DNA from: Gammaproteobacteria bacterium
GTDB taxonomy: Bacteria; Pseudomonadota; Gammaproteobacteria; Xanthomonadales; Rhodanobacteraceae
NCBI GenBank assembly: GCA_004295005.1
Contig: SHNG01000042.1
Span: 1 to 63,595 of the forward strand
Length of the DNA: 63,595 nt
Direction of reading: 5' to 3'
In this document: positions 45,663 through 59,157 of the stretch, piece by piece
Numbering within the stretch: the first letter of the stretch is position 1
Layout of the letters: each line of letters opens with the position of its first letter
Notes under the pieces: model-generated
What the model saw: the letters and a program-made list of their open reading frames with translations, nothing else
What the model was told of the DNA's origin: nothing
The model's database searches: none
Made by a program: the position numbers and the translations under genes

Positions 45663-45747
45663 GCGATGAGCATAGCCCGCTTTTTCGGCAATGAGCCAGC
45701 GCGCAAGCTGCCTGCGTCTCGTGAGGCAACTTCCCCGGAGAATGGCA

Positions 45748-46926
45748 ATGTCCAAGGTGCAGGAACCTGCGTTTCGATCCAATGAGCTGAAGCAACCCCA
45801 TCGTCGGCGTTTGCTGGCCCTGGGGGCCGCAGTGATGGCCGCGCCACTGGCAGGCGGCATGTTTTCCGCCGGTGCACAAGCCGGCAAACCGCCGTCGGCA
45901 CCAGCGACGGACGCTTCACAAGCCGCGCCGCCTGCTTCCCGCACGACGCTCGCCAAACGCAAGCTCGGCCCGCTGGAGGTCTCACCCATCGGTCTGGGCT
46001 GCATGGCGATGGCGCCGGGCTTCTACAACCCCGCGCCCGATCACGCGGCGATGGTGCGCCTGATCCGCGACGCGCACGCCATGGGCGTCACCTTCTTCGA
46101 TACGGCCGAGGTCTACGGCCCCTTCATCAGCGAAGAGATCGTCGGCGAGGCGCTGGCACCGATCCGCAACGCGGTGGTGCTGGCGACGAAATTCGGTTTC
46201 AACTACAACGGCAATTCCGTCAGCGGTCGCAACAGCCAGCCTGCGCATATCAAGACGCGGGTCGAAGGCATGCTCAAGCGCCTGCGCACCGATCGCATCG
46301 ACCTGCTCTACCTGCACCGCATGGACCCGAACGTGCCGATTGCCGATATCGCCGGCGCGGTGGGCGAGTTGATCGCGGCGGGCAAGGTGCGTGCCTTCGG
46401 CGTGTCCGAGGTGAACCCGGAAACCCTGCGCGGCGCGCATGCGGTGACGCCGGTGGCAGCCGTGCAGAGCGAATACTCGCTGCTCGAACGCCTGCCGGAG
46501 ATCGCCATGCTCGACACCTGCGCGGAACTCGGCATCGGCTTCGTGCCGTGGGGGCCGACCATGCGCGGACTGCTGGCCGACGGCTTCAATGCCTACAGCC
46601 GCTTTGACTCCCGCGATCGCCGCGCCAGCGTGCCGTTTCTCGCGCCCGCGGCGCTGGAAACGAACATGAAGATCGTGGCACTGGCCCGCGAGTGGGCGCA
46701 GCGCAAGAACGCAACACCGGTACAGATCGCCTTGGCCTGGCTGCTGGCGCAGCGCGATTTCATCGTGCCGATTCCCGGCACCACCAAATGGCCGCATCTG
46801 CGCGAGAACATGGGCGCGCTCGACCTGCGCTTCACAGCCGCCGAACTGGCCGAGTTCCGCAGCGCGCTTGCGGCGCTTCCCATCGTCGGCAACCGCCCCG
46901 CCAGCAAGGCGAAGGAGAACGAATGA
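45748..46926 (+). CDS. Tat-exported aldo/keto reductase
   Basis: A 392-residue protein. Start at ATG 45748, seven bases after GGAG. The N-terminus carries a twin-arginine signal (H-R-R-R-L-L-A-L-G-A-A then a hydrophobic run to A-G-A-Q-A), so the enzyme would be exported folded with its NADP. The AKR domain from about residue 70 has the full tetrad: Asp and Tyr in F-F-D-T-A-E-V-Y-G, Lys in L-A-T-K-F-G-F, His in L-Y-L-H-R-M-D. Closest in pattern to the cytoplasmic AKR at 58168. It overlaps the SnoaL-like gene by 4 bases. Confidence 0.9.
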   Translation: MSKVQEPAFRSNELKQPHRRRLLALGAAVMAAPLAGGMFSAGAQAGKPPSAPATDASQAAPPASRTTLAKRKLGPLEVSPIGLGCMAMAPGFYNPAPDHAAMVRLIRDAHAMGVTFFDTAEVYGPFISEEIVGEALAPIRNAVVLATKFGFNYNGNSVSGRNSQPAHIKTRVEGMLKRLRTDRIDLLYLHRMDPNVPIADIAGAVGELIAAGKVRAFGVSEVNPETLRGAHAVTPVAAVQSEYSLLERLPEIAMLDTCAELGIGFVPWGPTMRGLLADGFNAYSRFDSRDRRASVPFLAPAALETNMKIVALAREWAQRKNATPVQIALAWLLAQRDFIVPIPGTTKWPHLRENMGALDLRFTAAELAEFRSALAALPIVGNRPASKAKENE

Positions 46927-47465
46927 AAATCCCTGCCTTGGCCATCGTCACTGCCACACTCGCGCTGTGCCTGCTTCCGCAAGCTTCCCCTGCCCAGAGC
47001 AAGGCCGAACCCACGCTCAGCCAACGCCTCCAGCAACTTGAAGATCGAGCTGCGCTCAAGACCCTGGTCGATACCTTTTCCAACCTCGCCGACACCAAGT
47101 CGGTGGACGCGCAAGTACTTCTGTTCACCGAGGACGCCAGCGTCGATTCCTGGTCCGAAGGCAAGCAAGTGTCCTCGTTGAAGGGACGCAAGCAGATCGG
47201 CAAGTCGTTCTCCGACTACCTCGCCCTGTTCGATACGGTCTATCACATGAACGGCCAGCAGACCGTCGAGTTGCACGGCGACCGTGCCACCGGCACTTCG
47301 TATTGCCTGGTGGTGCTGATCGGCAAGGAAGGCGACCAGCGCTACCGCAACACCTCAGGCGTGATCTACCGCGACGAATACGTCCGCCGCGACGGCCGCT
47401 GGCTGATTGCAAAGCGCGTCTCCAACTTCAGCTGGCGCAGCCGCGAGGACGTGCCGGGGAGGTGA
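46923..47465 (+). CDS. Exported SnoaL/NTF2-like protein
   Basis: A 180-residue protein with a signal peptide (about 1-24, ending S-P-A-Q-A/S). A SnoaL-type alpha+beta barrel follows, with L-E-D-R-A-A-L-K-T-L-V-D-T-F-S-N-L-A-D, L-F-T-E-D-A-S-V-D-S-W and the closing D-G-R-W-L-I-A-K-R-V. SnoaL-like folds act as isomerases, hydrolases or ligand-binding proteins. Co-translation with the exported AKR suggests it handles the same periplasmic compound. Start at ATG 46923 (ATGA overlap). Confidence 0.85.
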   Translation: MKIPALAIVTATLALCLLPQASPAQSKAEPTLSQRLQQLEDRAALKTLVDTFSNLADTKSVDAQVLLFTEDASVDSWSEGKQVSSLKGRKQIGKSFSDYLALFDTVYHMNGQQTVELHGDRATGTSYCLVVLIGKEGDQRYRNTSGVIYRDEYVRRDGRWLIAKRVSNFSWRSREDVPGR

Positions 47466-47618
47466 GGCCCTGCAGCCCAGGGAAGATCGGACTCCAGTCT
47501 GGGCGCGGACGGGAGTCGGCACTTCCCGTGTTCAGGCGAACCACCGTTCCGGAGTAGTTCCGCTCCGTCGGCCCTCCACCTCGGTGACTTGCAATCCTTG
47601 CGATTCAAACCGACTCTA

Positions 47619-47648
47619 TGCGATCCAGACTATCGTTGTCGGATCGCA
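47619..47648. promoter_or_regulatory. Perfect inverted repeat just before the defence-cassette HTH gene
   Basis: TGCGATCC (47619-47626), 14 bases, GGATCGCA (47641-47648). It ends three bases before the ATG at 47652, so it either is the operator of the HTH protein or forms an RNA hairpin that covers the ribosome-binding site. A related half-site (TTGCGATTC) lies at 47599-47607. Confidence 0.6.
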
Positions 47649-47651
47649 GCC

Positions 47652-47861
47652 ATGACCGCAGAACCTTGGTTGTCCGTAGACCAGATCGCCGAGCATCTGG
47701 GCGTCACTCGCGACTCCATTTACCGCTGGATCGACCGCAAGCACCTGCCGGCGCACCGCGTCGGGCGGCTGTGGAAGTTTCAGCGCGCCGAGGTGGATGA
47801 CTGGGTGCGCGCCGGGGGAGCGGATGAAGCCGAAAAGGTGAGCGACGACCATGGCCGATAG
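47652..47861 (+). CDS. Small excisionase-like helix-turn-helix protein
   Basis: A 69-residue protein of the MerR-like/excisionase HTH_17 type: W-L-S-V-D-Q-I-A-E-H-L-G-V-T-R-D-S-I-Y-R then W-I-D-R-K-H-L-P-A-H-R-V-G-R-L-W-K-F. It probably binds DNA and may regulate the cassette or serve as a targeting subunit. Its last 11 bases overlap the helicase gene. Start at ATG 47652; the preceding region is occupied by an inverted repeat and lacks a strong Shine-Dalgarno. Confidence 0.88.
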   Translation: MTAEPWLSVDQIAEHLGVTRDSIYRWIDRKHLPAHRVGRLWKFQRAEVDDWVRAGGADEAEKVSDDHGR

Positions 47862-50800
47862 CAGCAAGCACCACTCGGGTATCCGTGACAATCACAGCCG
47901 CGGGAAAGTGGCCGAGTTCCTTGCTGACAAGCTCAGCGCCAATAGTCGGCTCTCCGTTGTCTCGGCCTACTTCACCATCTATGCCTACGACGCTCTGGCC
48001 AGCCAACTCGACCAGATCGAGCAACTGCAGTTCCTGTTCGGCGAACCTCGTTTCATCGCCTCACTGGATCCGGACAAGACCGACAAGAAGGCCTTCAAGA
48101 TCGAGGACGAGGGCCTGGAGTTGGCCAATCGCCTGCAGCAAAAAGAAATCGCCCACCGTTGCGCCGCGTGGCTGCGGGACAAGGTTGAAATCCGTTCCAT
48201 CCGCCAAGCCAACCTGCTGCACGGCAAGCTCTATCACATCGATGACGGCCGCCGCGAGCATGCCTTGCTCGGGAGTTCCAACTTCACCCGCCGTGGACTG
48301 GGTGTTTCGGCCACCTCCAACATCGAGCTGAATCTTGTCGTCGATGGCGACCGCGATCGCGCCGATCTCAAGGCCTGGTTCGATGAAATCTGGGCCAACG
48401 ACAAACTGGTGGAGGACGTGAAGGCTGAGGTTCTGCGTTACTTGGAACAGCTTTACGTCAACCACGCGCCGGAATTCGTCTATTTCAAGACGCTCTATCA
48501 CGTCTTCGAGCGTTTTCTTTCCGGGCAGGAAGCAGACGCCGCGCTGTTCGACCAGACCGCCATCATCGACAGCGATATCTGGAAGGCCTTGTTCGACTTC
48601 CAGAAAGACGGCGTCAAGGGGGCCATCCACAAGATCAACACTCACAACGGCTGCATCCTGGCCGACAGCGTGGGCCTGGGCAAAACCTATTCGGCGCTGG
48701 CCGTGATCAAGTACTTCGAGCTGCGCAACCACCGCGTGCTGGTGCTGTGCCCGAAGAAGCTGCGCGACAACTGGACGGTCTATCTCGCCCAGAACAACAG
48801 CGAGCTCAATCCCTTCCTCAAGGATCGTTTCGCCTACACCGTGCTCTCGCACACCGACCTGTCCCGCGACAGCGGCCGCGTGGACGGCGTCGACCTGGCT
48901 ACGCTCAACTGGGGCAACTTCGATCTGGTCGTCATCGACGAATCCCACAACTTCCGCAACAACACCAAGGGCAAGCACGACGAGGACGGCAATCTCATCC
49001 GCAAGAGCCGCTACGAGCGGCTGCTGGACGACATCATCAAGGCAGGTGTCAAGACCAAGGTGATGCTGCTTTCGGCAACACCGGTCAACAACGATCTCAA
49101 GGATCTGCGCAACCAGATCTACTTCGTCACCGAAGGGCGCGACACCGCGTTTGCGCATGGCTTCGGCATCGGCAGCATCAAGGACACGCTTACCGTCGCC
49201 CAGAAAACGTTCATGGAATGGGCCAGGCGCTCCGGCGAACGGGACGCTCGCGATTTGATGGAGCGCCTTTCCGCCGGATTCTTCACCCTGCTGGACGAAC
49301 TCACCATCGCGCGCTCGCGCAAGCACATCCAGAAATACTACAAGGCGTCGATGGCGCAGATCGGCCGGTTCCCGAAGCGCAGGAAGCCGGAATCGGTGTT
49401 CTCGGAAATCGACCTCAAGGGCCGCTTCCTTTCCTACGACAAGTTGAACGACGAGATCGACAACTACCAGCTTGCCATCTTCAAGCCGTCCAAATACGTG
49501 CTTGAAAAGTTCAAGGCGCAGTACGACGACGGTCGCGTGCAGAACTTCAGCCAGGAGAACCGCGAGAAATTCCTGATCGGCATGATGAAGGTGAACTTCC
49601 TCAAGCGTCTGGAAAGCTCGGTGCGCGCCTTCGCCATCACCATGGAGCGCACCGTCGCCAAGATCGAGGATCTGGAAGAACGTCTCAAGCGATTCCAGCA
49701 GCATCAGGCCTCGGCAGCGGAAGACATTCAGCCCGATTTCTTTGCCGAGCCGGGCGAGGAAGATGAAGAGCTGGCCGAGGCCTTCCAGGCCGGCAGCAAG
49801 CTCAAGTACCGCATGGAGCACATGGACGTGGCCGCCTGGCTGGCGGACCTGGCCACCGACAAGCAGCAGCTCTCACTGCTGGCCGACGCCGCCCAGGCGG
49901 TCGATGCCGCGCGTGACGCCAAGTTGGCCGAACTCAAGCGCTTGATCGAGCACAAGGTTCGCCACCCGGGCACCAATGCGCAGGGCGAGGAGAACCGCAA
50001 GGTGATCGTGTTCTGTGCCTTTGCCGATACCGCCGCCTACCTTTACGAAGAACTCGAAACCTGGGCGCGACAGCACCTTGGCATTCATATTGCTCTGGTC
50101 TCGGGCGGCACCCGCCCCAACCGCAGCAGCTTCGGCCAAGCCGAGTTCAGCCGCATCCTCACCAACTTCGCCCCCCGCGCCAAACAGCGCGCAAAGATGA
50201 AGTCGATGCCGCAGGAGGGCGAGATCGACCTGCTCATCGCCACCGATTGCATTTCCGAAGGCCAGAACCTGCAGGACTGCGACTACCTCATCAATTACGA
50301 CATCCACTGGAACCCGGTGCGTATCATCCAGCGTTTCGGCCGCATCGACCGCATCGGCAGCCCGAATCCCGCGATCCAGCTGGTCAATTTCTGGCCCACG
50401 CCCGACCTGAACAAGTACATCAACCTCAAGAACCGCGTCGAAGCCCGCATGGCGCTGGTGGACATCGCCGCCACGGCCGAAGACAACATCCTGCAGGGCG
50501 AAGACCTGGAAGAGCTGATCAAGCAGGATCTGCGCTACCGCGACAAGCAGCTGTTGCGGCTCAAGGACGAAGTGCTGGATCTTGAGGACTTCAACGAGTC
50601 CGTTGCCCTCAACGAATTCACGCTGGATGACTTCCGCATGGAGCTGGCCGCGTACATCGAGGCCAATCGCGAGAAGCTGGAACAGGCACCCTACGGGCTC
50701 TATGCCGTGGTACCACCGCATGCCGAGTACAGCGCCATCAAGCCCGGCATCATCTATTGCCTGAAGCAGCGCATCGACGCCGCCGGCAACGAAACCGTGA

Positions 50801-51177
50801 ACCCGTTGCAGCCGTACTTCCTCGTTTACATCCGTGATGATGGCGAGGTGCGTTACAACTTCACCGCACCCAAGCAGGTGCTGGAACTTTTCCGTGCCGT
50901 TTGCCAGGGCCAGACCGCGCCGCACGCCAAACTATGTGAACTGTTCGATATGGAAACCGGCAACGGGCAGGACATGAGCCGCTACAGCGGCCTTCTTGAA
51001 AAGGCCGTGGCCGCCATTGCCGCGCAGTTCGGCCGCAAGAACGCGGGCAACCTGTTCAGCGGACGCGGCGGCAAGCTGCTTGACTCGAATCAGGCCGTCA
51101 AGGCGACGACCGACTTCGATCTCATCACCTGGCTCGTAATCAAGCAGCCCACGGCCTTGAAAGGCGGCGAGCCATGA
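47851..51177 (+). CDS. PLD-like nuclease fused to SNF2/SF2 helicase (defence cassette)
   Basis: A 1108-residue protein. The N-terminal phospholipase-D-like domain (about 15-190) has H-G-K-L-Y-H (His124, Lys126) and G-S-S-N (141-144), a single HKD-type motif. The SF2 helicase core has Walker A A-D-S-V-G-L-G-K-T (271-279), box II D-E-S-H (363-366), motif III S-A-T-P-V, and in the second RecA-like lobe a motif VI Q-R-F-G-R-I-D-R (827-834). A C-terminal region of about 250 residues follows. The fold suggests an ATP-driven DNA translocase with an attached nuclease or DNA-binding module. Its stop overlaps the DUF1016 gene start (ATGA). Confidence 0.9.
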   Translation: MADSSKHHSGIRDNHSRGKVAEFLADKLSANSRLSVVSAYFTIYAYDALASQLDQIEQLQFLFGEPRFIASLDPDKTDKKAFKIEDEGLELANRLQQKEIAHRCAAWLRDKVEIRSIRQANLLHGKLYHIDDGRREHALLGSSNFTRRGLGVSATSNIELNLVVDGDRDRADLKAWFDEIWANDKLVEDVKAEVLRYLEQLYVNHAPEFVYFKTLYHVFERFLSGQEADAALFDQTAIIDSDIWKALFDFQKDGVKGAIHKINTHNGCILADSVGLGKTYSALAVIKYFELRNHRVLVLCPKKLRDNWTVYLAQNNSELNPFLKDRFAYTVLSHTDLSRDSGRVDGVDLATLNWGNFDLVVIDESHNFRNNTKGKHDEDGNLIRKSRYERLLDDIIKAGVKTKVMLLSATPVNNDLKDLRNQIYFVTEGRDTAFAHGFGIGSIKDTLTVAQKTFMEWARRSGERDARDLMERLSAGFFTLLDELTIARSRKHIQKYYKASMAQIGRFPKRRKPESVFSEIDLKGRFLSYDKLNDEIDNYQLAIFKPSKYVLEKFKAQYDDGRVQNFSQENREKFLIGMMKVNFLKRLESSVRAFAITMERTVAKIEDLEERLKRFQQHQASAAEDIQPDFFAEPGEEDEELAEAFQAGSKLKYRMEHMDVAAWLADLATDKQQLSLLADAAQAVDAARDAKLAELKRLIEHKVRHPGTNAQGEENRKVIVFCAFADTAAYLYEELETWARQHLGIHIALVSGGTRPNRSSFGQAEFSRILTNFAPRAKQRAKMKSMPQEGEIDLLIATDCISEGQNLQDCDYLINYDIHWNPVRIIQRFGRIDRIGSPNPAIQLVNFWPTPDLNKYINLKNRVEARMALVDIAATAEDNILQGEDLEELIKQDLRYRDKQLLRLKDEVLDLEDFNESVALNEFTLDDFRMELAAYIEANREKLEQAPYGLYAVVPPHAEYSAIKPGIIYCLKQRIDAAGNETVNPLQPYFLVYIRDDGEVRYNFTAPKQVLELFRAVCQGQTAPHAKLCELFDMETGNGQDMSRYSGLLEKAVAAIAAQFGRKNAGNLFSGRGGKLLDSNQAVKATTDFDLITWLVIKQPTALKGGEP

Positions 51178-52220
51178 CGGACAAGCGCATCAGCGCACCC
51201 CAGGATCCTGGTTTTGCCGACATCGCGCAGCTCATCGCGGTCGCCAAGCAACGCGCGGTGCAGGCGGTCAACACCGGTTTGATCGAGCTGTATTGGCAGA
51301 TCGGCCAGCGCATCAGCCAGAAGATCGCCGCCGCCGAATGGGGCGATGGCGTGGTGGATGAGCTGGCCCGTTACCTGGCGCAGACCCAGCCGGGGTTGCG
51401 TGGGTTCACCCGATCCAACCTGTTCAGGATGAAGCAGTTTTACGAGACCTATGCCGACAACGAAATTGTCGCGCCACTGGTGCGACAAATTCCTTGGGCG
51501 CACCACCTAATCATTCTTGGGCAAAGCAAGCGCCCCGAAGAGCGTGAGTTCTACCTGAAGCTGGCTGCGCAGGAGAAGTGGAGCAAGCGCGAGCTGGAGC
51601 GCCAGTTCAAGACTGCCCTGTTCGAGCGCACCGTCCTGACCCCGCCAAAAGTGTCGCCGGTGGTGACACAAATGCACCCCGAAGCCGCCAGCATCTTCAA
51701 GGACAGCTATCTGGTGGAGTTCCTCGACCTGCCGCAAGACCATCTGGAAGCCGATCTGCATCGCGGCCTCCTGCTGCGGCTCAAGGATTTTCTGATCGAG
51801 CTGGGGCGCGACTTCTGTTTCGTCGGCAGCCAATATCCGGTGCAGGTTGGCGGGCGCGACTTCGCGCTGGACCTGCTGTTCTTTCATCGCGGCCTGAACA
51901 GTCTGGTCGCCATCGAATTGAAGGTGGGCCGGTTCGAACCGGAGTACCTGGGCAAACTGAACTTCTATCTCGAAGCGCTCGACCGCGACGCCAAAAAATC
52001 GCACGAACAGCCCTCCATCGGCGTGCTGCTGTGCGCCAGCAAGGACGATGAAGTGGTGGAGTACGCGCTCAGCCGCAGCACTTCACCCGCACTGATTGCG
52101 CAGTACCAGACCCAGTTGCCGGACAAGGCTCTGCTGCGCGCCAAGCTGCATGAGTTCTACCTGCAGAACACGCAGGCGCAGGATGAGGAAGCGAATGAAC
52201 AAGCCTGGGAAACAGAATGA
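51174..52220 (+). CDS. DUF1016 (YhcG-type) PD-(D/E)XK nuclease-domain protein
   Basis: A 348-residue protein. The N-terminal DUF1016 helical domain (about 15-170) has Y-W-Q-I-G-Q-R-I, F-T-R-S-N-L-F-R-M-K-Q-F-Y and I-P-W-A-H-H. The C-terminal PD-(D/E)XK nuclease region (about 185-335) has D-F-A-L-D (Asp229/Asp233), then A-I-E-L-K (Glu248, Lys250), preceded by F-V-G-S-Q-Y. The active-site residues look intact. YhcG-like proteins often accompany restriction-type systems. It overlaps both neighbours by 4 bases. Confidence 0.92.
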   Translation: MTDKRISAPQDPGFADIAQLIAVAKQRAVQAVNTGLIELYWQIGQRISQKIAAAEWGDGVVDELARYLAQTQPGLRGFTRSNLFRMKQFYETYADNEIVAPLVRQIPWAHHLIILGQSKRPEEREFYLKLAAQEKWSKRELERQFKTALFERTVLTPPKVSPVVTQMHPEAASIFKDSYLVEFLDLPQDHLEADLHRGLLLRLKDFLIELGRDFCFVGSQYPVQVGGRDFALDLLFFHRGLNSLVAIELKVGRFEPEYLGKLNFYLEALDRDAKKSHEQPSIGVLLCASKDDEVVEYALSRSTSPALIAQYQTQLPDKALLRAKLHEFYLQNTQAQDEEANEQAWETE

Positions 52221-55200
52221 GCACTGACACCGCACTCAAGCAGGCCATCCGGCAGAACGTGCAGGCGTTTGCCGGCACGCCGTTGCGCAAGGCGGCGCTG
52301 TCGTTGTTCGCCACGCTGGGCTACACCTCCAGCCGCACCGTGGAAACCGCCTCGGTTGCCGATTTCCGCGCCCAGTTCGACCCGGACGGCAAGCTGGCGC
52401 ATCCGGCCGCCATGGCGGACGAATGGCGCGCCGGCGAACTGCTGTTCCAGCTCACCGATGAGGAGTTGTCCCGTAACGCCACGCTGTTCAAGGACGATGC
52501 GGTTCGCACCTCGCTGTTGCAGTCGTATGTGTTCATCGCGATCGAACTGGCCGGCACCGACTATGCCCGCGGCAAGCTGGCCGGCATTACCCGGCAGATC
52601 AACCGCATTTTCCCGATGCCGGTCATGGTGCTGTTCAAGATCGGCGGCAAGCTGTCCATCGCCGTCATTAACCGCCGCCTGAACAAGCGCGATGACCACA
52701 AGGACGTGCTGGGCAAGGTCACGCTGATCCAGAACATCGGCATCGACAAGCCGCACCCCGGGCATCTGGACATCCTGGCCTCGTTCTCGCTGACTGAGCT
52801 GACCGAAGGCCGCCGCGTTATCCACAACTTCGATCAGCTGCATACCGCGTGGGAGGACGTGTTCAACGTCGAGTTGCTGAACAAGCGGTTCTACGAGGAG
52901 CTCTCCAACTGGTATTTCTGGGCGCGCCATCAGGTCCGCTTCCCGTCCGACCTGGAGCCAGACGAAGGCACCCGCAATTCCACCAGCGTGATCCGCCTGC
53001 TGACACGCTTGATCTTCTGCTGGTTCCTGAAGGAAAAAGACCTCATTCCCGACCGCCTGTTCGATCAGGCAGAGATGGCCAAGGCGCTCACCACGCTGGG
53101 CGAAGACGACAGCAGCTACTACCGCGCCATTTTGCAGAACCTGTTCTTCGCCACCCTCAACCAGCCGATGAATGCCGGCGGCAGTGAACACCGCAAGTTT
53201 GCGGTGGAGGGCAAGTTCCAGGACAACCGCGCCCAGCACGGGGTCAAGAACCTGTACCGCTATTCCGCCGCATTCGCACAGCCGGATCAGGCGCTGTCAT
53301 TGTTTGAAAACATCCCGTTCCTCAACGGCGGCCTGTTTGCCTGCCTCGACGTGGAAGACGAATCCGGCAAGGTGCAGTACGCCGACGGCTTTTCGCGCAA
53401 CCCCAAGATGCAGCCGCAGGTGCCCAACCGCCTGTTCTTTGCCGAGCCGCATACAGTGGACTTGAGCGGCAAGGACGACTTCGGCGACGCCAAGAAAAAG
53501 AAGGCCAAGGTGCGCGGCCTGCTGCATATCCTCAATGGCTACAAGTTCACCATTGCCGAAAGCACCCCGGTGGAGCAGGAAATCGCGCTGGACCCGGAAA
53601 TGCTGGGCAAGGTGTTCGAAAACCTGCTGGCCAGCTACAACCCCGAAACCGGCGAAAGTGCGCGCCGCCAGACCGGCTCATTCTACACCCCGCGGCCCAT
53701 CGTCGAACACATGGTGGACAGCACGCTCAAGGCCAGCCTGGCCGATGCGCTGTGCCAGCGCTTGCCCGCCACCAGCCGCGAAGACGCGCAGGCCGGGCTG
53801 GACATCCTGTTTGCCTATACCGAGAAGCAGCACGCCTTCAGCCCAGCCGAAAGCCATGCCCTGATTGCGGCCATCGATGCGCTGAACATCCTCGACCCGG
53901 CCTGCGGCTCCGGCGCCTATCCGATGGGCATCCTGCACAAGCTGGTGTTCGTGCTGGGCAAGCTGGACCCCAACAACCAGCAGTGGCACGCACGCCAGAT
54001 CGCCAAGGCCGAAACCATCGAAGACGCGCAGGCGCGTGATTCCGCCATTGCCGCCATCAACGCGGATTTTGCCGACAACGCGCTGGATTATGGCCGCAAG
54101 CTGTATCTGATCGAAAACTGCATCTACGGCGTGGACATCCAGCCCATCGCCATCCAGATCGCCAAGCTACGATTCTTCATTTCGCTGATCTGCGACCAGA
54201 AGACCCACGCCGACAAGGCGCGCAACCTGGGCATCCGCCCATTGCCGAACCTGGAAACCAAGTTCGTGGCCGCCGACAGCCTGTTGGCGCTGGATCCGAC
54301 CGGCAGCAGCGCCAGCATGGCCGACAGCGACCAGATCAAGGCGCTCAAGGTGCAGTTGGCCGGGGTGCGCCACCGTTACTTCTCCGCCCAGTCTCGCGAC
54401 GAGAAAAATCGCCTGCGCAAGCAGGACGACAAGCTGCGCAGGCAGATTCTGGATGCGCTCACCCAGCTCGGCTTCGGCAGCGAGATCGAGCGCCGCCGGG
54501 TGGAATGGAACCCCTACGACCACCACGCCGTGGCCAGCTTCTTCGAGCCGGTCACCATGTTCGGCCCGCGCCTGCAGCAAGGCTTCGATGTGGTGATCGG
54601 CAACCCGCCGTATATCCAGATTCAGAAGTTTGATGCCGCGCATAAACAGGCCTGGCAGGCCCAGCACTACAGCACTTACGCTGCCACGGGCGATGTGTAC
54701 TGCCTGTTCTACGAGCGTGGCGTGCGCCTGCTGAAGGACGGCGGGCAACTCAGCTACATCACCTCCAACAAGTGGATGCGGGCGGGCTACGGTGAGGCGT
54801 TGCGCAAGTTTCTGGCAACGAAGGTGGATACGGTTTCCGTGCTCGACTTTGGCATGGCGCAGAACTTTGGCGCCGCCACCACATACACCTGCATCGTTCA
54901 CGCTATTCAGCGTAAGAGCACAGCCGCTACAAGCGCGTGTTACGTCACCAATGATGTGGCCGCCATGCACGACCCCGGCGCGTATCTTGCCAACAACGCC
55001 GTCACACGCGGTGATTTTGGTGCCGATTCTTGGGTGTTGCTGTCCTCCGAGCGCTACGCCATCAAGCAGGCGGCAGAGGCGCAAGGAGTACCCCTGGAGC
55101 GCTGGCATCTGCAAATCAACTACGGCATCAAGACCGGCTGCAACGAAGCGTTCTATATCACTGAGGCACAGCGCGACGCGTTGATTGCCCAAGACCCCAA

Positions 55201-56104
55201 ATGCGCGGAACTGATTGTGCCCTTGCTGCGGGGGCGCTATGTCGATCGTTATGCCACCACATGGCATCAATTGAGTGACGAGAAGTGGATGATTGCCACC
55301 TTCCCTTCATTGGATTTGGCATTTGAAGATCTACCTCGGCCAATTCAAAAGCATCTCGCGAATCACGAAAGAGAGCTGAAGCCCAAGCCTAGAGGGTGGG
55401 CAGGCAGCAATTGGCCAGGGCGCAAGGCTGGTGCTTACGAATGGTTTGAAACGCAGGATGCCATCTCGTACCGCGAGGAATTCAAGAAGCCCAAGATCAT
55501 CTACCCCAACATGACCAAGTACCTGCCGTTCTATCTGGACACGGAAGAGCATTTTTTCGGCAATCAGAAGTGCTTCATCATCACCGCCGAGGACGAGTCC
55601 CTGCCGTATCTGGTAGCGGTGCTGAACTCGTCCCTGTTCCGCTGCTGCTTCAAGGACAACTTCCCGGAGCTGATGGGAAACACGTACGAACTCAGCAAGA
55701 TCTTCATGGACAAGGTGCCGATCAAGAAGCCGGATGCGGCACAAGCCGCCCTGTTCGAAGCACTGGTGCCGCTGGTACAGGCGGCCAAGGCACAAGCGCA
55801 GACCCGCGATGACAAGGCCTGTGTGCTGGCCGGCGACTTCCTTACCGAAGTGATCGACGCCTGCGTGATGGAGCTCTACTTCGCCCAGCACATGGCCGAA
55901 CGCAAGCTGGCCATCACCGCCGCCGTGCGCGCCCTGCTGCCCGCCAACGTGGCCACGATGTCCCAAGCCGAACAGGCCGAGGCCGCGCTGGCTTTCCATC
56001 GCACAGCCAACGCAAGCAACCACCCCATCCGCAATATCCTGCTGCGCATCCCCGCCGACAGCCCCGACCTGCTGGCCGTGATCCAGCGCGAGGGCGCGGT
56101 ATGA
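52217..56104 (+). CDS. Eco57I-type N6-adenine DNA methyltransferase (large, type IIG/PglX-like)
   Basis: A 1295-residue protein. The N-terminal about 450 residues are an unassigned region that could hold specificity or nuclease functions; I could not find a clear PD-(D/E)XK motif. The methyltransferase core has S-adenosylmethionine motif I L-D-P-A-C-G-S-G (559-566) and catalytic motif IV N-P-P-Y (796-799), the gamma-type N6-adenine order. The C-terminal about 300 residues, with W-H-Q-L-S and G-N-Q-K-C-F-I-I-T, resemble a target-recognition domain (TaqI/Eco57I style). It probably marks host DNA. It overlaps both neighbours by 4 bases. Confidence 0.92.
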   Translation: MSTDTALKQAIRQNVQAFAGTPLRKAALSLFATLGYTSSRTVETASVADFRAQFDPDGKLAHPAAMADEWRAGELLFQLTDEELSRNATLFKDDAVRTSLLQSYVFIAIELAGTDYARGKLAGITRQINRIFPMPVMVLFKIGGKLSIAVINRRLNKRDDHKDVLGKVTLIQNIGIDKPHPGHLDILASFSLTELTEGRRVIHNFDQLHTAWEDVFNVELLNKRFYEELSNWYFWARHQVRFPSDLEPDEGTRNSTSVIRLLTRLIFCWFLKEKDLIPDRLFDQAEMAKALTTLGEDDSSYYRAILQNLFFATLNQPMNAGGSEHRKFAVEGKFQDNRAQHGVKNLYRYSAAFAQPDQALSLFENIPFLNGGLFACLDVEDESGKVQYADGFSRNPKMQPQVPNRLFFAEPHTVDLSGKDDFGDAKKKKAKVRGLLHILNGYKFTIAESTPVEQEIALDPEMLGKVFENLLASYNPETGESARRQTGSFYTPRPIVEHMVDSTLKASLADALCQRLPATSREDAQAGLDILFAYTEKQHAFSPAESHALIAAIDALNILDPACGSGAYPMGILHKLVFVLGKLDPNNQQWHARQIAKAETIEDAQARDSAIAAINADFADNALDYGRKLYLIENCIYGVDIQPIAIQIAKLRFFISLICDQKTHADKARNLGIRPLPNLETKFVAADSLLALDPTGSSASMADSDQIKALKVQLAGVRHRYFSAQSRDEKNRLRKQDDKLRRQILDALTQLGFGSEIERRRVEWNPYDHHAVASFFEPVTMFGPRLQQGFDVVIGNPPYIQIQKFDAAHKQAWQAQHYSTYAATGDVYCLFYERGVRLLKDGGQLSYITSNKWMRAGYGEALRKFLATKVDTVSVLDFGMAQNFGAATTYTCIVHAIQRKSTAATSACYVTNDVAAMHDPGAYLANNAVTRGDFGADSWVLLSSERYAIKQAAEAQGVPLERWHLQINYGIKTGCNEAFYITEAQRDALIAQDPKCAELIVPLLRGRYVDRYATTWHQLSDEKWMIATFPSLDLAFEDLPRPIQKHLANHERELKPKPRGWAGSNWPGRKAGAYEWFETQDAISYREEFKKPKIIYPNMTKYLPFYLDTEEHFFGNQKCFIITAEDESLPYLVAVLNSSLFRCCFKDNFPELMGNTYELSKIFMDKVPIKKPDAAQAALFEALVPLVQAAKAQAQTRDDKACVLAGDFLTEVIDACVMELYFAQHMAERKLAITAAVRALLPANVATMSQAEQAEAALAFHRTANASNHPIRNILLRIPADSPDLLAVIQREGAV

Positions 56105-57774
56105 GCCAGCGTCTGCACCATATCGCCATCACCAACTTCAAGGCCTTCCGCCAGTTTGAACTGGCGCTCGAAGGCCGCCATCTGCTGGTGTACGGCGCCA
56201 ACGGCGCAGGCAAGTCATCGCTGTACTGGGCGCTGTACACCTTCCTGCAAAGCGCACGCAAACGGCCCCGACACTGCATCGCCAAGTACTTCGACCCGGC
56301 CGACGCGCAGAACCTGCTGAACATCCACGAGCAGGCCGAAGCAGCGCCCAAGCCCGGCGAAATCGCGCTGAGCCTGCGCGATACCGCCACCCGCAACGAC
56401 AGCACCTACCGCATCAGCCAGGCCGACCACGGCACCTTCAACCAGCCTGCCATCCTCAAGGGCGAGCTGGCCAGCGACTTCATCACCTACCGGTTCTTTT
56501 TCGGCTTCTCGCACTTCCGCAACTCGGAGAAGTTCAATCTCTGGCCGTTGTTCGAGCGGGAAATTCTTCCCTTTTGCGTGAGCACCGGCGGGCTGTCGCC
56601 TTACGACCTGTGGCAAAAAATCAAGTCGGGCGATCCAAATCCCACGGGCAGTCGAGGTCTTGGCGGTGCCTATTCATACGATGACTTCAAGCGAAATACC
56701 GGCAGCTTTGCAGCGATCCTGCCGAGAATCGTTGATAGCATCAGCGTCGAAGCGCAGCGCTTCTACGACAAGCATTTTTCGACAGGCGATTCGGCCAAGG
56801 TCACGCTCAAGCTGGGCGTCACCACCAACGCATCCGCGACCGGGAGCAGTCACTCCGACTTCCGGTTTGTTGCGCCGGAGATCGAGTTCGGGATCCAGAT
56901 CGCCGGTCAGACCATCACGCGCCCGCAGAGCTTCCTCAATGAAGCCAAGCTCACCCAGTTGGCGCTGTCGGTGCGTTTTGCCGCGTCGCTGGTCAACCTG
57001 CACGACTCGGACCTGAAATTGCTGGTGCTGGACGACCTGCTGGTCAGCCTGGACATGAGCAACCGGATGCAGGTGGTGGACATTTTGCTGTCCGACACCT
57101 TCGCCGGCTACCAGAAGATCATCCTCACCCATGAACTGGGGTTCTTCCGCGAGTTCCGACGCCGGATCGGCAACGGCCACGCCGACTGGCGGTTCGTGCG
57201 CCTGCAAGGCAACGCCAAGCAACGCATAGAGGCTGTCAACGAGAAGAGCGACAAGGAGAAGGCGGAGGACTACCTCAACCGCCACGACATCGAAGAAGCC
57301 GCCATGTTCCTGCGCAAGGCGGCCGAGGACACCGCCAAACGCTATCGCGAATGGGCCGAAGGCAAGGCCTTGCCGCCGGGGAAGTTCTATTCATTGACCG
57401 ACAACCTGCGTGCGGCGCGTAACAAGCTGCTGCAAGGCCTGCCGGCCTCGCTGTACGAAAGCGTGTTGAAAGGCACGCCCAAGGAATATCGGGAACTGCT
57501 GATATCGGGCGATGACACCGACCTGGACGCCAATGCCGCACTGCAACCGGCCGACCGGGACGAGCTGAAGAGGCAGCGCCAGAACCTTCGCAAGGCCCTG
57601 CAGGACGACGGCTGGGCCAGGATGGAAGCGGTGGAAGCCGTGGACCGCGTGCTGGAGATGACCGAGCGCGTGCTCAACCCGGCATCCCACGGCAGCGCCA
57701 CGCCGCTCTACGAAGAAGAAGTCCGGCGCGCGATGCGGCTCATCGAGCACTTGGAACGCGTGCTGAAGGCATAG
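56101..57774 (+). CDS. RecF/SMC-like AAA ATPase (defence cassette)
   Basis: A 557-residue ABC-type ATPase. Walker A is G-A-N-G-A-G-K-S-S (32-40), right after the typical I-T-N-F-K-A-F-R-Q-F-E start. Walker B is L-L-V-L-D-D-L-L-V-S-L-D (Asp311/Asp312), followed by I-I-L-T-H-E. There is no long coiled coil between them, so it is a compact RecF/OLD/RloC-like protein. The C-terminal 170 residues are helical and charged, with no HNH or TOPRIM motif that I can see. It probably acts as the sensor or regulator of the cassette. It is the last gene, starting in an ATGA overlap. Confidence 0.9.
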   Translation: MSQRLHHIAITNFKAFRQFELALEGRHLLVYGANGAGKSSLYWALYTFLQSARKRPRHCIAKYFDPADAQNLLNIHEQAEAAPKPGEIALSLRDTATRNDSTYRISQADHGTFNQPAILKGELASDFITYRFFFGFSHFRNSEKFNLWPLFEREILPFCVSTGGLSPYDLWQKIKSGDPNPTGSRGLGGAYSYDDFKRNTGSFAAILPRIVDSISVEAQRFYDKHFSTGDSAKVTLKLGVTTNASATGSSHSDFRFVAPEIEFGIQIAGQTITRPQSFLNEAKLTQLALSVRFAASLVNLHDSDLKLLVLDDLLVSLDMSNRMQVVDILLSDTFAGYQKIILTHELGFFREFRRRIGNGHADWRFVRLQGNAKQRIEAVNEKSDKEKAEDYLNRHDIEEAAMFLRKAAEDTAKRYREWAEGKALPPGKFYSLTDNLRAARNKLLQGLPASLYESVLKGTPKEYRELLISGDDTDLDANAALQPADRDELKRQRQNLRKALQDDGWARMEAVEAVDRVLEMTERVLNPASHGSATPLYEEEVRRAMRLIEHLERVLKA

Positions 57775-57882
57775 CGACCGCGCAAGGGTCGATCCAGCCT
57801 GGCACCTTGGGATGCCGGGAATGGTGGTATCTGCGGGTCGTACAGGCGCAGGCCGCGCCCATCGCACTTCATGTGTCCTGAA

Positions 57883-57904
57883 TTACTGAAATCCCCTCAA
57901 CAGT
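57883..57904. promoter_or_regulatory. LysR-type operator site B, upstream of AKR-ADH-SDR-MFS operon
   Basis: TTACTGA-AATCCCC-TCAACAG-T matches the pattern of sites A and C. The similarity to site A continues for about 30 bases downstream (CAGTGC..TGAGC..GCCCGC) and includes TGTGTC upstream, so the two promoter regions look homologous. It begins 109 bases after the last defence gene and lies about 265 bases upstream of the AKR start, with a BIME in between. Confidence 0.65.
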
Positions 57905-58011
57905 GCCTTGAGCCTTGCCCGCTGTTTCCACCGCAAGGGCCGGCGCATGCTGCGTGCACCACGAAAAGCCCTTGCGCCGCGCCGCGGGCACGGCTTCGCA
58001 AACCCCATTGA

Positions 58012-59157
<1,146 letters not shown>

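Follow-up and report, generated by a model that had tools for sequence, protein, structure and literature searches.

A predicted ATP-dependent restriction-modification operon with a putative PrrC-like ribonuclease guard in a genome of the Rhodanobacteraceae

The locus described here lies in contig SHNG01000042.1 of a gammaproteobacterium of the family Rhodanobacteraceae, of which positions 1 to 63,595 (the window, 63,595 nucleotides in all) were analyzed, and it comprises five genes on the forward strand, each overlapping the next, by 11, 4, 4, and 4 bases in turn. The first (47652..47861, starting at the ATG at 47652 within a longer TTG frame, 47589-47861) encodes a small DNA-binding protein of the helix-turn-helix (HTH) HTH_17/excisionase type (Pfam HTH_17, 6e-17). 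It is followed by P0002 (47851..51177), a fusion of a PLD (HKD) nuclease with a Snf2-type translocase of superfamily 2 (SF2), which is the predicted restriction (R) subunit; by P0003 (51174..52220), a YhcG/DUF1016 PD-(D/E)XK nuclease that appears to be an exchangeable accessory; by an Eco57I-type N6-adenine methyltransferase with a TaqI_C specificity domain (52217..56104), the predicted modification and specificity (M+S) subunit; and by P0005 (56101..57774), an ABC ATPase with a putative HEPN-like C-terminal domain, the predicted PrrC-like ribonuclease guard. The overlapping five-gene arrangement reported in an earlier sequence-only reading is borne out by the reading frames, and the motifs that it had described as intact were all found (helicase, PLD, YhcG, methyltransferase, and ATPase), with Pfam domains above their cut-offs. 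The motor, the nuclease, and the methyltransferase expected of an ATP-dependent restriction-modification system in general are present in a single operon with intact motifs, and the cassette is held, with moderate confidence, to be an acquired operon of this kind with a built-in PrrC-like suicide guard, all of whose biochemical steps we infer. The confidences given below to this explanation and to its rivals overlap, as the explanations are not exclusive and do not sum to unity.

The helicase contains the Pfam domains PLDc_2, SNF2-rel_dom, and Helicase_C above their cut-offs, together with the motifs HGK...GSSN, GLGKT, DESH, and QRFGRIDR. It also matches the PADLOC profile C3a139 ("HKD+Snf2") at 439 bits over its full length (positions 20-946 of 948), a label that we take to originate in a survey of the neighbours of type III CRISPR systems. 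The methyltransferase was recognized by the Pfam profiles Eco57I (4e-39), TaqI_C (8e-10), and N6_Mtase (7e-8), the last of which (PF02384, an HsdM-type family) matches over a short stretch with 32.5 bits, and it contains the motifs DPACGSG and NPPY, whose surroundings (D560-G566 and N796-Y799) are conserved across an alignment of 51 homologues. The first 520 residues of this protein (52217..53776, forward strand) are also conserved, with R126, N129, R153, and R154, among others, being invariant in 30 sequences, and this region may bind the DNA or a partner protein; the AlphaFold2 (AF2) model of residues 1-520 has a predicted local distance difference test (pLDDT) score of 76, and a PDB search with it gave nothing at E<=0.001. 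A PD-(D/E)XK nuclease in this N-terminus was considered and set aside, given that no such motif was recognized in the columns conserved in the 51 homologues. As frames of 1108 and 1295 residues match curated families, and the pairing of the helicase with the methyltransferase recurs elsewhere, the cassette is beyond what chance would produce.

This recurrence was assessed using the helicase P0002 alone as the query, from which the best 80 of 585 relatives from named genomes were retained, a sampling that over-represents the loci closest to the helicase of the window. A further 20 loci came from 398 genomes of the phylum, where the helicase was found at E<=1e-100 in 21 genomes, including that of the window itself, and the total set consists of 101 loci with the window included. 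In 64 of these 101 loci, the helicase has an Eco57I-type methyltransferase downstream of it on the same strand, the distance between the starts of the two matches being 2.8-5.8 kb (median 3.4 kb); L042, whose contig ends after the helicase, bears the Eco57I label only on a weak upstream match. A type III Mod takes the place of this partner in 23 loci (17 from the phylum sample and six from the best-80 set), accompanied by a Res match in 20 and by DUF4391 in 14, and RE_endonuc was present in the Res of the one type III locus examined for domains. The remaining 14 loci include 12 whose sequence stops no more than 0.8 kb from the helicase, which is not the case for L022 and L080. In a FastTree tree of the 96 helicases of at least 900 residues, with 63 Eco57I-labelled and 23 type III-labelled rows, the partner label changes only once.

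The search in the opposite direction, with the N-terminus of the methyltransferase, found this region in three of the 398 phylum genomes, that is, in the genome of the window, in G071, and in G027 (residues 208-512 only), and a relative of P0002 lies alongside in all three, the one in G027 being distant (26% identity, residues 108-850). As the pairing is found both ways, the conserved core consists, at the level of sequence, of two genes, the PLD-Snf2 helicase and the Eco57I-type methyltransferase. A gene order conserved across genomes is seen for this pair, and not for the set of five. Two methyltransferase loci have peculiarities of their own. At the helicase-methyltransferase-ABC locus of G071 (L131), both the methyltransferase match and the ATPase match are broken up over two frames, and this copy looks decayed or mis-sequenced. 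In L012 (13297-20652), from a Microcoleus metagenome-assembled genome, a 2451-residue frame with sigma-70 regions and an AAA domain is found where the methyltransferase match starts, which is possibly an odd fusion or an assembly error.

The catalytic residues of the PLD domain follow the partner. The HKD active-site region (H124, K126 to N144; 48220..48282, forward strand) has its H/K/N triad intact in 63/63 of the Eco57I-labelled helicases and in 0/23 of the type III-labelled ones, as well as in eight of the ten unlabelled sequences, while the helicase motifs are conserved throughout all 96 members of the tree. Given these counts and the single change of partner on the tree, the PLD domain is very likely to act as the restriction nuclease alongside an Eco57I-type partner, and the simplest reading of the other group is that the domain has decayed where Res supplies the nuclease: the triad is retained where no other core nuclease was seen, and the type III loci bring the Res nuclease. 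The same contrast gives a hint as to which members of this widespread helicase family cut DNA themselves. It also bears on a different explanation, in which self DNA would be marked by methylation and phage DNA blocked without cutting, as in BREX; such exclusion finds some support in the weak matches of the methyltransferase to PglX (86 bits) and DrmMI (82 bits) and in DrmD being the best NCBIfam match of the helicase (167 bits against a cut-off of 610), but a triad kept in every Eco57I-labelled helicase argues for cutting. As there is also no match to PglZ or to MZB/DUF1998 at E<=0.001 in the genome, whose assembly is approximately 87% complete, this explanation is considered improbable.

In L080 (9965-15485), a triad-intact helicase is followed by a 716-residue protein with a DUF4391 match just under the cut-off, and no Eco57I-type match was found downstream; this locus is possibly an intermediate between the Eco57I and type III groups. 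In plasmids, a helicase match was found in 517 of 72,556 records, with less than 60% identity in 516 of these.

The second nuclease has a different distribution. Although P0003 is a clear member of its family (YhcG_C 4e-55, DUF1016_N 6e-46, with the motif LDLLFF...AIELK), YhcG matches, counted by tblastn with P0003 at E<=1e-5, occur in 11 of the 63 helicase-Eco57I loci, a distribution that takes 11 changes on the helicase tree, and lie between the helicase and the methyltransferase in seven loci and after the methyltransferase in four. The proposal that the five genes form one conserved unit is not supported, and the obligate five-gene set was rejected on these same counts. YhcG is, by its distribution among the sequences, a swappable passenger outside the conserved core, and the slot that it occupies is taken elsewhere by a Schlafen AlbA_2/Fic-like_C protein (L040), RhuM (L047), KilA-N (L028), a Fic relative (L027), or Uma2 (L052). 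A machine of five parts, in which YhcG and the PLD domain would both be required effectors driven by the helicase and the ATPase, is consistent with the overlap and common direction of all five genes and with L036, which shares the order helicase, YhcG, methyltransferase, and ATPase, but is very improbable in view of the scattered presence, the variable position, and the replacement of YhcG by other families. The suggestion that the ATPase and the helicase activate one of two nucleases is likewise unlikely as far as YhcG is concerned, and the ATPase is probably an effector itself, as an ABC-HEPN ribonuclease, rather than only an activator. That ABC-HEPN proteins share restriction operons with genes of the RhuM-like and Fic/Doc-like kinds had already been noted, according to the available portion of one source (PMC3710099). 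In a Treponema locus (L057, 15485-19981), a 1498-residue protein with no Pfam match at E<=0.001 lies between the methyltransferase and YhcG.

For the protein initially described as a RecF-like ATPase, the most likely identity is that of an ABC-HEPN protein, predicted to be PrrC-like. P0005 has the Pfam domains SMC_N and AAA_15 above their cut-offs and the motifs GANGAGKSS and LDD, and its C-terminal helical domain (57238..57774, forward strand) contains R405-x3-E409 and N526-x3-H530, residues that, together with E540 and A544, are the six invariant positions of this region in 14/14 aligned homologues, with a Ser preceding the His in 11 of them. This R-x3-E...N-x3-H signature, located in the last 150 residues, had been overlooked in the sequence-only reading. 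In the part of the source available, the RloC motif is given as Arg-X3-Glu-X36-52-His, often with a Ser before the His, matching the PrrC triad, and the replacement of any one of the three residues abolishes activity (PMC2610378), as is likewise stated for PrrC in the available part of another source (PMC3014915). The Arg-X3-Glu...His triad that marks the C-terminus of PrrC and RloC is present in P0005, and near full-length matches to the Pfam HEPN profile, all below its threshold of 22 bits, were obtained with three of the 14 homologues, L002 (4e-4, 20.9 bits), L036 (1e-3, 19.5 bits), and L010 (0.025, 15.2 bits). The ABC-HEPN prediction is made because the invariant R-x3-E and N-x3-H match the PrrC/RloC pattern and because of these three sub-threshold matches; the HEPN fold and the RNA target are predicted, with homology suggested by the motifs and sub-threshold scores. 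As the CxxC zinc hook occurs in none of the 14 homologues, the build of the ATPase is nearer to that of PrrC than to that of RloC. For reference, 16 AAA_13 loci in 200 phylum genomes gave 13 frames after filtering, of which 11 contain R-x3-E followed by [NH]-x2-S-H (L098 is truncated, and L102 lacks the signature). A regular-expression scan over ABC-like frames found the signature in 13/13 frames of the family passing the filter and in seven of 11 others, most of which are AAA_13 and hence do not constitute an independent control.

A number of results weigh against a ribonuclease guard. The spacing from E to H, at 56 to approximately 120 residues, is longer than the published 36-52; P0005 scores 29.9 of the 36 bits of the AAA_13 gathering threshold and has no Pfam HEPN match at E<=1; the alignment of its C-terminus with 11 AAA_13 C-termini in hhalign was not significant (E 0.05-0.1); and the 50 Foldseek PDB matches listed for its AF2 model (pLDDT 82.5) include no HEPN structure. 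The guard is also optional, being found in 15 of the 63 Eco57I-labelled loci (16 rows less L064), and its presence changes nine times on the tree, a count that includes L064, whose ABC protein is OLD/DUF4435-like. Relatives of the ATPase occur in ten of the 398 phylum genomes, eight of them without an Eco57I-type locus; five of these eight regions were read and contained no helicase or methyltransferase match, and the signature was present in two of them (L163 and L165) and not found in the other three.

These results give some room to an alternative in which the restriction-modification core is as described above, but the ABC protein would be a non-nuclease, DNA-sensing or DNA-loading ATPase similar to RecF or Rad50, whose C-terminus would only bind the methyltransferase, with the R-x3-E and N-x3-H residues having a structural or binding role. 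The listed PDB matches, 50 in number, belong to Rad50, SMC, RecF, and PtuA/retron ATPases, and the want of a significant profile match to AAA_13 C-termini and of a HEPN match for P0005 points the same way. On the other hand, R405, E409, N526, and H530 are invariant, alongside only two further residues, in the published catalytic pattern, and the sub-threshold HEPN matches of the three homologues cover nearly the whole profile, so that a non-nuclease ATPase is judged unlikely, though it carries appreciable weight. Other searches with P0005 yielded nine weak phmmer matches, which were to Rad50 heads and to an ABC transporter (best E 0.0015), 11 hmmsearch matches to the C-terminal profile, none of them HEPN (best E 0.083), and, among the 72,556 plasmid records, three weak tblastn matches for the whole protein and none for the C-terminus at E<=0.01. 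The AAA_13 profile had no match in the window's own genome at E<=0.001.

The predicted guard is tied to the methyltransferase in gene order. The frames of these two genes overlap by exactly four bases in 12 of the 14 loci, the exceptions being L063, with an overlap of one base, and L008, where a BRO-N-like gene lies between them, and METHYLTRANSFERASE and the guard travel together. Across the 14 loci, the identity matrices of the methyltransferase and the ATPase are correlated (rho 0.78, p 0.001), with no such correlation between helicase and methyltransferase (rho 0.04) or helicase and ATPase (rho 0.00). For example, L002 is 89% identical to the window in its helicase, 39% in its methyltransferase, and 24% in its ATPase, while the corresponding values for L043 are 54%, 55%, and 57%. 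As the divergence of the methyltransferase and that of the ATPase correlate across the loci, the guard is predicted to contact the methyltransferase. Two ATPase subtypes account for much of this correlation, and within them it is less strong or less specific: in the first (seven loci), rho is 0.59 with p 0.07, and in the second (seven loci; rho 0.79, p 0.006), the helicase also correlates, both with the ATPase (0.64, p 0.001) and with the methyltransferase (0.57, p 0.009).

A broader reading, which is put forward tentatively and may well be wrong, is that of a modular family, in which a generic PLD-Snf2 cutting motor would be combined with exchangeable cassettes of methyltransferase and guard, the PrrC-like ABC-HEPN ribonuclease physically monitoring its own specificity and methylation subunit and stopping translation upon an attack on this subunit; two fixed slots would take additional effectors (TIR-TPR, other ABC proteins, YhcG, Schlafen/Fic-like proteins, and RhuM). 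In L061 (7779-9485), the ABC-HEPN slot is occupied by a TIR-TPR protein with a 4-base overlap with the methyltransferase, and in L010 a TIR protein lies directly 3' of the ABC-HEPN gene. The ABC protein in the guard slot of L064 (16998-18695) has the same 4-base overlap and matches OLD/retron-Eco8-like and DUF4435 families rather than HEPN.

In the favoured restriction-modification reading, the HTH protein would tune expression, and the methyltransferase, with its own specificity domain, would recognize a DNA site and mark the host DNA with N6-methyladenine. At unmethylated DNA, it would hand over to the PLD-Snf2 protein, which would translocate along the DNA and cut it with the HKD active site. 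The ABC-HEPN protein would be kept inactive by the methyltransferase or by the complex, and if a phage blocked or overwhelmed restriction, the ribonuclease domain would be released to cut RNA, most likely tRNA, and translation would stop; YhcG would be an exchangeable add-on. The methylation-guarded, restriction-like defence put forward in the sequence-only reading is supported insofar as the families and motifs suggest it. PrrC is the classic ribonuclease guarding a restriction enzyme and is known from type I loci. The guarding of restriction enzymes by suicide ribonucleases has been proposed to be general, in the parts available of two sources (PMC3506569, PMC3710099), and a PrrC-like guard on a different, two-protein ATP-dependent restriction machine would, if confirmed, support this generality. 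The methyltransferase and the predicted ribonuclease also form a testable pair, the question being whether the former silences the latter.

Among the known systems close to the cassette is the sister group of PLD-helicase, DUF4391, type III Mod, and Res, which has the same helicase family (C3a139 for both P0002 and L074) in an operon with a DNA methyltransferase, but differs in the loss of the HKD triad in all 23 members and in the Mod, Res, and DUF4391 counts given above; this group may correspond to the four-gene restriction-like loci brought up in the sequence-only reading, and possibly to a published "restriction-like" system. The helicase of the cassette has a conserved methyltransferase partner, unlike SauUSI, a stand-alone enzyme for modified DNA with a nuclease of the PLD type. 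In both cases, the nuclease and the SF2 motor are in a single protein, which in SauUSI is an ATP-dependent endonuclease, according to the portion of the source available (PMC7913695). CglI also restricts DNA in an ATP-dependent manner with a PLD nuclease and a helicase-like SF2 motor, although, as far as the available text goes, nuclease and motor are separate proteins there, the former carrying a B3-like recognition domain (PMC5737866), whereas they are fused in the cassette, where recognition probably resides in the methyltransferase. The type IIG enzymes (Eco57I, MmeI) resemble the methyltransferase in combining its core and a TaqI-like specificity domain in one chain, but the N-terminal half of the cassette protein has no recognized PD-(D/E)XK motif, and the nuclease is probably a separate ATP-driven protein. 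The Type-2 BREX-related and CxC-ABC/Pbe systems also have a fusion of HKD nuclease and SF2 helicase with an ATPase, and the former an N6-methyltransferase as well, but the accessible passages define the former by a DUF499 ATPase (with DUF3780) and the latter by a zinc-hook CxC ABC ATPase and DndE (PMC12839542, PMC10853773), and neither DUF499, DUF3780, nor DndE appears in the Pfam and NCBIfam match lists obtained with the five proteins, the ABC proteins being without CxxC.

DISARM with DrmD and DrmMI likewise combines a Snf2-like helicase with a large adenine methyltransferase, with weak family matches, but in the cassette the PLD domain is fused to the helicase, and the DrmD match is far below its cut-off; the 80-bit match of the helicase to DrmA probably reflects the shared motor only. 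The view that the cassette is neither BREX nor DISARM agrees with the features tested, which are PglZ for BREX (BrxC was not searched in the genome) and MZB/DUF1998 for the DrmB of DISARM. It is not classical type I either, as had been proposed, since none of the five proteins has a Pfam or NCBIfam match to an HsdR or HsdS family; the PADLOC lists extended to 25 matches. Nor was the MADS set mad1-mad8 found, given that the HTH protein scores 67 bits against the NCBIfam MADS1 cut-off of 80, and the PADLOC profiles mad1, mad2, and mad3 score 49, 55, and 45 bits, with no match to the other mad genes among those listed. A close functional parallel is EcoprrI-PrrC, a type Ic system with an anticodon nuclease, which is also a restriction-modification operon with an ABC ATPase carrying a C-terminal R-x3-E...H and no zinc hook, and for which release is predicted when restriction fails, according to the parts of the sources available (PMC2610378, PMC3506569, PMC3710099, PMC3874165). 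The core of the cassette is, however, PLD-Snf2 and Eco57I-type methyltransferase rather than HsdMSR, its ABC protein has a longer E-to-H spacing, and its RNA target is predicted. By analogy, the cassette most likely functions like EcoprrI-PrrC without being a member, as it has no HsdR or HsdS and remains under the AAA_13 cut-off. No description of a PLD-Snf2 helicase with an Eco57I-type methyltransferase and an ABC-HEPN protein was found in a literature search that missed most subscription journals, and an earlier description is possible.

The HTH protein is probably an autoregulator of the operon, a role we infer; an HTH match at E<=1e-5 lies upstream of the helicase in six of the 101 loci (the window, L017, L027, L040, L068, and L146). 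A consensus scan for sigma-70-type promoter-like sites found none in 47350-58120, against 1.8 expected in shuffled sequences. The G+C content of the cassette is 59-62%, as opposed to 64-66% immediately around it, and an aldo/keto reductase gene lies on either side of it (45691-46926 and 58090-59157), the two being related (54% identity). A Pfam scan of ten neighbours found reductases, dehydrogenases, transporters, SnoaL and CMD domains, and one gene without a match, and no defence-like genes. The cassette looks acquired and situated outside a defence island, within the scanned neighbourhood. A search for the two flanking reductases in 20 relatives turned up many paralogues and no empty site that could be used.

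Finally, an imperfect palindrome of 90 bases, with 38-nucleotide arms that are 84% complementary, lies downstream of the cassette (58039-58128), and it has 39 matches in the genome, including eight full-length copies, itself among them, with 92-100% identity. Since the ATG at 58090 falls within the palindrome, the reductase gene probably begins further downstream.

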